Source: Bacteroidales bacterium
GTDB taxonomy: Bacteria > Bacteroidota > Bacteroidia > Bacteroidales > Tenuifilaceae
NCBI GenBank assembly: GCA_017524185.1
Contig: JAFWUG010000018.1
Coordinates: 1 to 64,000 of the forward strand
Direction: 5' to 3'
Length of the DNA stretch: 64,000 nt
Part shown: piece after piece, positions 6,501 to 50,944 of the stretch
Layout: the number at the start of each line of letters is the position of its first letter
How positions within the stretch are numbered: position 1 is the stretch's first letter
Program-made: the position numbers and the translations under genes
The notes under the pieces: generated by a model
The model's database searches: none
What the model was told of the DNA's origin: nothing
The model's input: the letters and a program-made list of their open reading frames with translations, nothing else

Positions 6501-7196
6501 CTATTGAATACTAATGCGTTCGTTGCAATCTATGCTATCTACAAACACAGAGCCGTAGGGGTCGTTGTCATCATCATCGTCGTCGGGCTCTAACTCCCAC
6601 GACCAAACGCGCCGCTGCGGACCCTGATGACGGTAGGCGTAGGCGCACAACGCACCGCACATGGCACTATAGAGATGATACTCCCACGATATTTTGGGAT
6701 AGATTGGCAGCACACCCCAAACCATGCCACCATAGAGAAACACAACCAGCATCGATATGGCCATAAGGCGCGTATCGGCACGGATAATTCCGCTAAAGAA
6801 CAGAAATGCGGCCATGCCGTAGATTAGCCCGCTGGCTCCAATATGGAAACTGTCTCGCGCCCCCACCCACACCAGTAAACCACCGAGCAGCCAAACAACT
6901 GCCATCACCTTATAGGCGAGGTCGCGATAGAAATAGAGCATACCCGCTCCTAAAACTACAAGCGGTATGCTATTAGAAATGAGATGATTATATCCAGAAT
7001 GAATGAAAGGAGCAGTTAGCACGCCTACCAGCCCGCTAAGCTGGCGCGGCAGCACGCCCCAGTGGGCAAAACTATTGCCATCTAAATGCTCCACCAGCCT
7101 CACAACCCACAGCAACGCCACAAAAACTATCGGCACCAAGAAACTGTACCTAACCCGCTTGCGCTCGTTGCTGTGGGTGGAGCTGCTTTGGAGCAT
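6501..7196 (-). CDS. Rhomboid-family intramembrane serine protease
   Basis: 231 residues with six predicted membrane segments. The family core is intact: HSGYNHLISN in the second helix region (about 66-75), GASG at 120-123 giving catalytic Ser122, and EYHLYSAMCG (172-181) giving catalytic His174. Rhomboids cleave transmembrane helices of other membrane proteins inside the bilayer. The C-terminal 40 residues are a cytosolic tail with a run of acidic residues (EPDDDDDDND). The gene follows the peptidyl-prolyl isomerase gene by 11 bp and is probably cotranscribed with it from the promoter near 7700. The substrate is unknown. Confidence 0.9.
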   Translation of the reverse strand: MLQSSSTHSNERKRVRYSFLVPIVFVALLWVVRLVEHLDGNSFAHWGVLPRQLSGLVGVLTAPFIHSGYNHLISNSIPLVVLGAGMLYFYRDLAYKVMAVVWLLGGLLVWVGARDSFHIGASGLIYGMAAFLFFSGIIRADTRLMAISMLVVFLYGGMVWGVLPIYPKISWEYHLYSAMCGALCAYAYRHQGPQRRVWSWELEPDDDDDDNDPYGSVFVDSIDCNERISIQ

Positions 7197-49419: not shown

Positions 49420-49833
49420 TTGTCCCATCACACCCACATCATAGCCCGCCTTGCGCTGCTGCTCTACCTCGTAGGCATGGCCGTAGCTATGCTGCTGCCT
49501 TTGGGCGGGTTGTCCGTTTCGCTCAACCGCATCAGGCTGCTGGGCTTCAGGGGCGACCATGTGGTACACGCAGCTATGTTTGTGGGCTTGCTGTTGATAA
49601 TGGGCTACAACCGCCGCGTGTCTGCTGCGCGATGGTGGCGGAGCCTATGGCCGTGTCTGCTGCTGGCCGTGCTGCTGGCTGTGGGCTCGGAGCTGCTGCA
49701 GGGGTTGCTCCACATCCGCCGCTTCAGCCCCAGCGACATGCAGGCCAACCTCGTGGGCATAGCCCTCGGCCTGCTGCCGTTTTTGATGGTGAGCAGAAAC
49801 AGACAGATAAAGCACCGCCATGAGAATGGATAA
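49420..49833 (+). CDS. VanZ-like membrane protein
   Basis: 137 residues with four membrane helices. The VanZ/YwnJ pattern is visible as DHVVHAAMFVGLLLIMGY (about 47-64) and the later E-x-x-Q (SELLQGLLHIRRFSPSDMQANLVG, in two parts, about 89-112). The start is TTG at 49420, 5 bp after the epimerase stop; there is no suitable ATG upstream. Its function in Bacteroidota is unknown; VanZ-like proteins in Gram-positives affect glycopeptide tolerance. Last recognisable gene before the gene-poor stretch. Confidence 0.82.
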   Translation: MSHHTHIIARLALLLYLVGMAVAMLLPLGGLSVSLNRIRLLGFRGDHVVHAAMFVGLLLIMGYNRRVSAARWWRSLWPCLLLAVLLAVGSELLQGLLHIRRFSPSDMQANLVGIALGLLPFLMVSRNRQIKHRHENG

Positions 49834-50021
49834 TTTTTCAGGCCTCCGCTGCAACTTTTTCTTATCCTGTACAGTATTATAAAAGTTAAGCCGCACATTT
49901 TTTTGTGGCATCATCATTTTTTTGTAAGTAATTATAAACTAAACCTGTTCGTTATCGACATAAACAACTGACATTCACACATATAAACCAAACGGTAGCG
50001 TTTGCTATTTATTCGACATTT

Positions 50022-50164
50022 GCCTTGAAACCTGAGAAATTTTAAGCAATGAAAGTCCCGATAAGTCAGCGAACGCCTGTGCGTTAGCGCGGGCGTGGAC
50101 TTGTCGACTTTCATGGGCTTCTCAGGGCCTCAAGGCGTGGATAAGGAAACATCCGCGCTTTTTT
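50022..50164 (+). ncRNA. Candidate structured RNA with intrinsic terminator (unassigned)
   Basis: Four stacked stems fold the region into one long rod: 50022-50028 with 50130-50136 (7 bp), 50031-50038 with 50119-50126 (8 bp), 50049-50057 with 50106-50114 (9 bp) and 50060-50067 with 50098-50105 (8 bp, one G-U), capped by a GC-rich 30-nt end loop that can itself pair. An 8-bp terminator hairpin (50135-50142 with 50151-50158) and six T follow and share 2 nt with the base of the rod. A weak -7 box (GACATTTG) ends at 50022. No family was recognised; a 6S-like RNA, a small regulatory RNA or a mobile-element end are possible. Confidence 0.4.
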
Positions 50165-50246
50165 GTTGGCCGCTGAGCAGCCCGTGAAGCCAGAATACCA
50201 TAGGACACGCGCTTCCGCGAGTGGAGCATGTGTTTAGGTGCTGTGA

Positions 50247-50501
50247 GCAGGGTCTGCACGGGATGAGCAAGAGGAGCGAATGGAAATCGACTTTCTAACT
50301 GCCAAAAGCAAGCTAACTACACGGCACAATATCAGCCCAATAAAAGTGAAATCGTCGCAGCGATATACGCTAACATCCTTACGGAAATGCATGAATAAAT
50401 TTGGCGAATATCTCTCCACGCCCATTGTGCTGCATACGGCCGACCTAAAAACCGACAACGGTATCTTATTCCTACCCATCTACATGGCCGCGCAGATTTG
50501 A
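50247..50501 (+). pseudogene. Relic of a DUF4143-type ATPase (C-terminal end only)
   Basis: The frame ending at TGA 50499-50501 reads EIDFLTAKSKL, then ISPIKVKSSQRYTLTSLRKC, then LHTADLKTDNGILFLPIYMA. This is the familiar C-terminal block of AAA_14/DUF4143 proteins (E-I-D-F-L, P-I-x-V-K-S, L-P-x-Y-M-A). The frame opens at 50247 after a stop and has no ATPase domain upstream. It is a different subfamily from the intact protein at 30030. An ATG at 50280 could give a 73-residue peptide, but I consider it a remnant. Confidence 0.7.
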
Positions 50502-50547
50502 TACGCTGAGGGGAGCATAATCTCTGATACAAGATTTGCGACAAAAA

Positions 50548-50761
50548 ATGCTTCCCGACTTCCAAATAGTGTCACCACTGGTGTCAAAATTGTCGTGGAA
50601 TCTTCTTGTTGTTGCTTTGCATCGTGGGTGGCGAGGAACAGATAGAACTGCTGCAACTCGACAAGGTCGGCATCAAGGTGGCCAAATACATAACAGTGTT
50701 ACCGCCTCGTGAGGTCTTACAGCACCAGATACAGAAATCCTTAGAAGCTGCCAAGGCGTAA
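50548..50761 (+). pseudogene. Relic of a YhcG/DUF1016-type PD-(D/E)XK nuclease
   Basis: Two pieces in different frames. 50548-50601 reads LPDFQIVSPLVSKLSWN, like the N-terminal DUF1016 domain. 50627-50761 reads GGEEQIELLQLDKVGIKVAK and then YITVLPPREVLQHQIQKSLEAA to a stop, the C-terminal tail of the same family. The catalytic nuclease core between them is missing (only about 25 bp instead of several hundred), so the gene is dead by internal deletion plus frameshift. Confidence 0.65.
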
Positions 50762-50944
50762 CCATCAATAGTTCAAGAATCTCCGTGGTCGCATTAAGAT
50801 GATTCCACAAAAAATGCACGAATGACGTAACATTTCTGAAAAAACAACGTCTATACCAAAACTATAGCAACACAGCCATGCAGCAACACATAAACCACAT
50901 AGAGCGCAATAAACACCGCAAACAGCGGCTGTGTTTGGGTTTTA

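Follow-up and report, generated by a model that had tools for sequence, protein, structure and literature searches.

The window analysed here is a stretch of 64,000 nucleotides from a Bacteroidales genome (G000). It holds an intergenic region between a VanZ-like ORF, which ends at 49833, and degraded ORFs that start after 50280, and in this region the initial annotation, made from the sequence alone, had placed a long rod-shaped RNA candidate with its own terminator. Refolding bears out both the placement and the two main features. RNAfold of 50022-50164 returns a single rod over 50022-50136, with stems of 7, 7, 3+9 and 8 bp and an apical helix of 10 bp. The MFE of this rod is -70.6 kcal/mol against -41.3 +/- 4.1 in 200 dinucleotide shuffles (z -7.1), which is 29 kcal/mol under the shuffle mean; none of the 200 shuffles folds as low, so that the earlier impression of pairing beyond chance holds. 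The terminator arms (50135-50142 and 50151-50158) form 8 bp, including one G-U, ahead of six T at 50159-50164, and the two nucleotides common to terminator and rod base are those already noted. Missing from that first anatomy were the apical hairpin, a conserved leader box upstream of the rod and, beyond the terminator, a strand able to pair with the rod 3' strand (Table 1). No Rfam model matched over the element in the window at gathering score, and lax thresholds gave chance-level matches only; the annotation had been unable to match it to tRNA, tmRNA, RNase P, SRP or a known riboswitch.

Table 1. Features of the element and of the DNA behind it in the window
Feature	Position	Strand	Basis or remark
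Conserved leader box TAGCGTTTGCTATTTATTCG (segment 1, 20 nt): 5' mini-hairpin TAGC..GCTA plus TTATTCG	49996-50015	+	same or nearly same in paralogues
Rod: stems P1, P2, P3, inner stem and apical hairpin, with internal loops	50022-50136	+	z -7.1; covariation in 54 homologs
Apical hairpin, 10 bp	50073-50096	+	helix 5 of the covariation alignment, 99.2% of cells paired
Apical 3' strand GCGCGGGCGT	50087-50096	+	also able to pair with the terminator 3' arm
Rod 3' strand, two possible partners (rod 5' strand or 50167-50186)	50113-50130	+	duplex energy
Intrinsic terminator, 8-bp stem and six T	50135-50164	+	50135-50136 common to rod base
Segment 4, post-terminator strand, able to pair in the alternative fold (P4) with the rod 3' strand	50167-50186	+	71-locus own versus swapped test
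Departure from the sister genome G001; start codon of the restriction-modification (R-M) gene absent, short degraded ORFs instead	50219-50770	+	alignment

Homologs of the rod and the genes behind them

This genome carries 4 copies of the element, and G001, the only other genome of the genus compared, carries 6. The G001 counterpart of the window copy is 99% identical to it. A second G001 copy (copy b), with 76-80% identity, lies between ribH- and clpB-like genes (named by reading their translations); between it and the window copy almost every rod pair is conserved, in two cases by two-sided changes. Copy b is probably decaying, because its fold is no better than that of its own shuffles and it is without a clean terminator. 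A covariance model made from these three sequences led to a third copy in both genomes (G000:C86 and G001:C111), which has the same 20-nt box and a rod of equal stability (z -7.9) whose letters are almost wholly different.

Behind the counterpart of the window copy, at +223, G001 has an ORF with Mrr_cat_2 and ResIII domains (L238). The alignment of the window with G001 holds to about 50218 and then parts, some 20 nt short of the G001 start codon; the two short ORFs of the window that were scanned there (50280-50498 and 50606-50758) are without a Pfam match. By this alignment the window copy is an orphan that keeps box, rod, terminator and segment 4, and its gene would have been lost recently. 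Degraded ORFs with what reads as an ATPase-like end follow the element in the window (50280-50770) and precede it in G001 (L002, ~1925-1970). Since this remnant stands on opposite sides of the element in the two genomes, the spot has been rearranged.

The box alone, used as a search pattern, recovers the rod family. With the box as the only query (TAGCGTTTGCNNNYTATTCG, rod excluded) and one genome per species, at least 119 stretches matched; 112 of the matches listed are Bacteroidota by record title, mostly rumen and hindgut Bacteroidales. Isolates with the element include Porphyromonas pasteri JCM 30531 (L192) and Bacteroidales bacterium KHT7 (L171). A rod with z < -3 follows within 130 nt of the box in 101 of the 115 foldable matches listed (4 were too short to fold), compared with 1 of 116 control stretches about 1 kb away. 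The 14 listed matches without a good rod comprise 7 non-Bacteroidota and 7 Bacteroidales. Among the latter, L126, L179 and L184 are truncated after the 5' strand, and L135 and L181 carry an insertion inside the rod. A T run occupies the terminator place in 88 of 95 homologs of this R-M subfamily, among the matches listed, and in 57 of 58 loci of the broad set described below. The strict box, with up to 3 mismatches, matched in the genus's two genomes only. Matches of a degenerate 1-mismatch box in all 27 family genomes were set aside as chance: a control pattern matched nearly equally often in several, and those examined outside the genus looked coding. No similar DNA was found on plasmids and phages, and the viral contigs held one exact box (L311:2558-2577, minus strand), without a rod after it. 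At gathering score, Rfam 15 had no match over the element in 39 further loci (sets of 19 and 20), and the element family is recognised by no Rfam 15 model. On Prevotella contig L145, two Acido-Lenti-1 RNA matches face each other near a tRNA, at 6790-6835 (-) and 6913-6960 (+).

A same-strand ORF lies behind the element in 98 of 111 Bacteroidales loci among the matches listed, counts that omit the 7 matches with non-Bacteroidota titles and L180; 12 loci end too soon and 1 has none. Of these 98 listed first ORFs, 59 contain a DNA-methyltransferase catalytic motif, and in the listed loci with this motif the distance from box to start codon is 191-226 nt (5th-95th percentile), about 210 nt. When 30 of the other 39 first ORFs were scanned singly by Pfam, 9 matched R-M families, for a total of 68 R-M first ORFs among the 98 listed; two of the 9, L127 and L139, fell just under the Pfam cut-off, and at least five more (L129, L144, L149, L178 and L187) share one BLAST cluster with these two. 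Pfam family counts over the same 98 first ORFs, which overlap, are 22 for N6_N4_Mtase, 14 for N6_Mtase, 10 for EcoRI_methylase, 8 for HSDR_N_2, 7 for MmeI_Mtase, 6 for Eco57I and 5 for DNA_methylase (C5). The subfamily thus precedes R-M genes of type I, IIG, III, EcoRI-like and Dcm kinds, and in the type III Mod clusters a Res-like gene lies behind Mod in several loci. At least 12 subfamily loci have a first gene other than R-M; such genes include HAD, XRE-HTH and fimbrillin-like genes and others without assigned function. Small XRE-type helix-turn-helix genes, possible regulators, stand right behind the element at the usual distance in L099, L224, L226 and L227.

Covariation and alternative pairings in the leader

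Homologs preserve the stems of the rod, where the initial annotation had looked to stem-breaking substitutions as the evidence against it. In the MAFFT alignment A10 of 54 sequences, the structure pairs 96.8% of 1343 cells, compared with 24.5-43.1% when partners are slid by 1-3 columns and 79.5% after shuffling, and 17 of 25 pairs show two-sided changes. A first consensus structure, with an alternative apical hairpin, was replaced once more homologs had been compared. Stem P3 was tested by arm exchange, since the alignment fails to hold it in register; in the 57 of 95 loci with both anchors, own arms reach -11.7 kcal/mol and exchanged arms -3.5, and the own arm is the best partner in 53 of 57. 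For tests of own against swapped partners, 71 of the 95 loci were kept as non-redundant, and all pairing tests omit L126, L135, L179, L181, L184 and L189 (Bacteroidales copies without a good rod). The lower stems give -23.0 with their own and -10.6 with swapped partners, the own partner being best in 60 of 71. Moreover, the fold is better on the sense than on the antisense strand in 92 of 95 R-M subfamily loci, among the matches listed, and in 56 of 58 of the broad set, and the apical helix is rich in G-U pairs. Both observations indicate that selection acts on the RNA.

The rod 3' strand has a second partner beyond the terminator. Post-terminator and rod 3' strands from the same locus pair at -24.4 kcal/mol, compared with -15.7 for swapped strands (0 of 2000 permutations as good; 71 loci), and the control pairing of the rod 5' strand with the post-terminator strand showed no such complementarity in this 71-locus test. 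In the window, the duplex of 50113-50130 with 50167-50186 amounts to -29.2 kcal/mol. The rod leaves a conserved GGGY of its 3' strand unpaired, and this alternative fold, P4, pairs it. Rod and P4 both exceed swapped partners and both use the rod 3' strand; they are mutually exclusive structures. A structured RNA with its own terminator and competing stems, as first proposed, is therefore supported, and the competition extends well past the two shared nucleotides in which it had been seen. In MFE folds of the full leader, the downstream partner takes the rod 3' strand in 68 of 77 loci among the matches listed, and the rod retains it in 9 of 77; when the G001 leader is ended at the T run, its fold is the rod. 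Judged from these full-leader and T-run-cut folds, the terminated RNA and the read-through mRNA would end with different structures. The median P4 energy is -19.4 in 12 loci without an R-M gene and -24.0 in 69 with one (p 0.010), which is suggestive of a weaker P4 where the R-M gene is absent, in a comparison that leaves out 14 loci and has the near-duplicates L096 and L206 among the 12.

Further pairings involve the apical helix and the box. The apical 3' strand pairs with the terminator 3' arm at -13.9 for own and -11.9 for swapped partners (0 of 2000), a signal that could be indirect, as the same sequence often recurs in the terminator 5' arm. The box in turn can pair with the 45 nt ahead of the start codon, and 68 of 69 loci among the matches listed lie below their own shuffles in this respect. 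Pairing of the leader with the inner rod is weak in the R-M set (-11.1 versus -10.0; 53 of 69 loci among the matches listed).

A sister subfamily and the signals upstream of the box

A model built from the 54 sequences, R3, matched in 114 of 393 Bacteroidales genomes, from 74 of 207 genera; scoring was limited to 8 candidates per genome, so that copy numbers are lower bounds. These searches, which are independent of the exact box, gave many genes other than R-M genes, and the idea that every downstream gene belongs to an R-M system was abandoned. From 59 further R3 matches, hand-chosen down the listed table, a sister subfamily with another box emerged, AAGC-GTTA-GCTT followed by TTATTCTT; L253, clipped at a contig end, was dropped from this broad set. 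The rod of the sister subfamily is built alike (own -22.4, swapped -8.2; the own partner is best in 57 of 58). The first genes behind it vary, with lipoproteins, secreted proteins, LytTR-like proteins, an acyltransferase and some R-M genes under labels assigned mostly by reading N-termini, and across the wider family the first genes are mostly not R-M. P4 is strong in the R-M subfamily only; the broad set shows it weakly (own -13.1, swapped -11.2). In 88 sequences including R-M-type copies, the second half of the box and the inner rod 5' strand covary, as in L258 with CTATTGTC/GACAATAG, and reach -9.5 for own and -6.7 for swapped partners (0 of 5000), a test inflated by the mixing of subfamilies, because its control, mini-hairpin with inner rod, is also significant. 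By eye, the terminator 3' arm has complementary GGGAATT-like sequences in several broad-set loci. In L252 a match to DUF805 RNA (RF03081) lies between terminator and ORF, at 1663-1731 on the minus strand. DUF805 RNA is likewise a candidate cis-regulatory RNA; unlike the element, it is a separate 68-nt motif, present in 1 of the 20 loci scanned for it.

Upstream of the box, a promoter-like motif, TAnnTTTG, occurs in 63 of 101 R-M subfamily loci among the matches listed and in 43 of 58 broad-set loci, compared with 5 and 4 loci for a control pattern. Because the motif is common at this place, the box is probably transcribed; before the window's box, no clear promoter is visible. From sequence evidence (T run and TAnnTTTG), an intrinsic terminator is present between promoter-like motif and gene. 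Start-stop mini-ORFs precede the box in 29 of 54 broad-set loci (shuffled mean 12.2, maximum 20) and might be a ribosome-dependent trigger there. Mini-ORF leader peptides are not enriched in the R-M subfamily, with 20 of 101 loci among the matches listed against a shuffled mean of 21.3. Mini-ORFs such as ATG ACA TAA, ATG GTA TAG and ATG TAA lie ~25-45 nt upstream of the box, for example in L249, L252, L255 and L263.

Probable attenuation and its alternatives

We consider it likely that the 5' leader of the gene, in this subfamily usually an R-M gene, holds a cis-acting transcription attenuator with the rod at its core; the element would then probably decide whether the gene behind it is transcribed. 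Four segments alternate in polarity: the box (1), the rod 5' strand (2), the rod 3' strand (3) and the post-terminator strand, which reaches to just before the start codon (4). Shown by comparison among homologs are the predicted pairings 2:3 (the rod), 3:4 (P4) and that of 1 with either the inner part of 2 or the end of 4. In the OFF state, 2:3 would form, polymerase would stop at the terminator and an RNA of ~150-200 nt would be released. The ON state would begin when segment 1, or a factor, holds the inner part of 2; the freed apical 3' strand would take the terminator 3' arm, polymerase would read through, and the transcript would finally settle into 3:4. P4 itself could not prevent termination, because segment 4 is made after the terminator. 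The antiterminator step would depend on the pairing of apical 3' strand and terminator 3' arm, the weaker of the signals. Pausing, a ribosome, a protein, a ligand or a second RNA are all possible kinds of trigger.

Trp-type four-segment attenuators combine alternating complementary segments, mutually exclusive hairpins and an intrinsic terminator before the gene, and the element resembles them in all three respects. It differs in that leader peptides are not enriched (in the R-M subfamily), that segment 4 lies past the terminator, and that one family serves many unrelated genes. In processive antitermination leaders of the put, EAR and LoaP/UpxY types, a structured 5' leader lets polymerase pass a terminator, as the element's leader would; unlike these, the element is without an Rfam match. 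NusG paralogues serve Bacteroides capsule loci. Matches to the NusG domain number two in G000 and one in G001, and a dedicated NusG paralogue is unlikely in G001 because that genome has 6 element copies but a single NusG-domain match.

It is unlikely that the element is instead an independent gene for a small RNA, 6S-like or trans-acting in another way, that ends in a terminator of its own and merely travels with R-M genes. Such a gene would account for the promoter-like motif upstream, the terminator at the end and the rod kept by orphan copies without an R-M gene, the window's among them, and its terminated RNA would be stable; but the start codon stands at a fixed distance, and the post-terminator strand coevolves with the rod. 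The initial annotation had seen a loose likeness to 6S RNA, which did not stand up. Both 6S RNA (RF00013) and 6S-Flavo (RF01685) are likewise rods with internal loops, 100-200 nt long, and PMC7366714 reports a validated 6S RNA in B. thetaiotaomicron. The two models gave 0 matches in the element's own genome at E <= 10 and none at gathering in the window. A large central single-stranded bubble of the 6S type is absent from the RNAfold structure, whose internal loops are small to medium, none of them symmetric and central. Unlike 6S RNA, moreover, the element has several copies, is linked to a downstream gene and has a terminator that overlaps the rod base. The lack of a 6S match, the multiple copies and the fixed distance upstream of genes all speak for an element of 5' leaders and against an RNA gene that stands alone.

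Less likely still, we think, is a riboswitch in which the rod and its conserved loops bind a small molecule and set the same terminator. SAM would suit the methyltransferases, most subfamily genes being SAM-dependent methyltransferases, and a two-state leader with conserved loop nucleotides is what such a switch would have. The wider family, however, precedes secreted proteins, regulators and acyltransferases, which have no common substrate; the stems are hypervariable, and most of the conserved letters belong to strands that are needed for pairing. Most improbable of the alternatives is a DNA-level element (a single-stranded recombination site of the integron attC type, a REP/MITE or an integration hot spot): the multiple copies, the hypervariable imperfect hairpin, the orphans and the different sequences adjoining the copy in G000 and G001 would fit, but the G-U pairs, the better fold of the sense strand, the T tract, and the fixed spacing and orientation to the gene speak against it, as does the single same-strand element per locus, without attC-type cassette arrays, among the matches listed from the box search, where the lone second match, on the other strand in L040, coincides with the rod already counted.

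Beyond the attenuator itself, we propose tentatively, as a possibility we hold to be somewhat short of even, an RNA-based regulon in Bacteroidales: one attenuator family, its stems kept mutually different, would gate unrelated R-M systems and, in the sister subfamily, genes for surface and secreted proteins, all of them answering to one trigger that recognises the near-invariant box. Passages in the open-licence papers PMC2864571, PMC8040213, PMC7160235 and PMC7366714 name no structured leader before R-M genes, and supplementary motif lists may hold one.

In an order of bacteria that dominate gut and rumen, a conserved RNA switch shared by R-M genes of at least five unrelated kinds would add a new level to the control of phage defence. 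R-M systems must be held back on entering a new host, yet not be lost later, and their known control is by proteins, namely C proteins and methylase repressors. Were the regulon reading true, all R-M types would come under RNA control, beyond that by C proteins or methylases. The same switch would also bear on how hard Bacteroidales are to transform.
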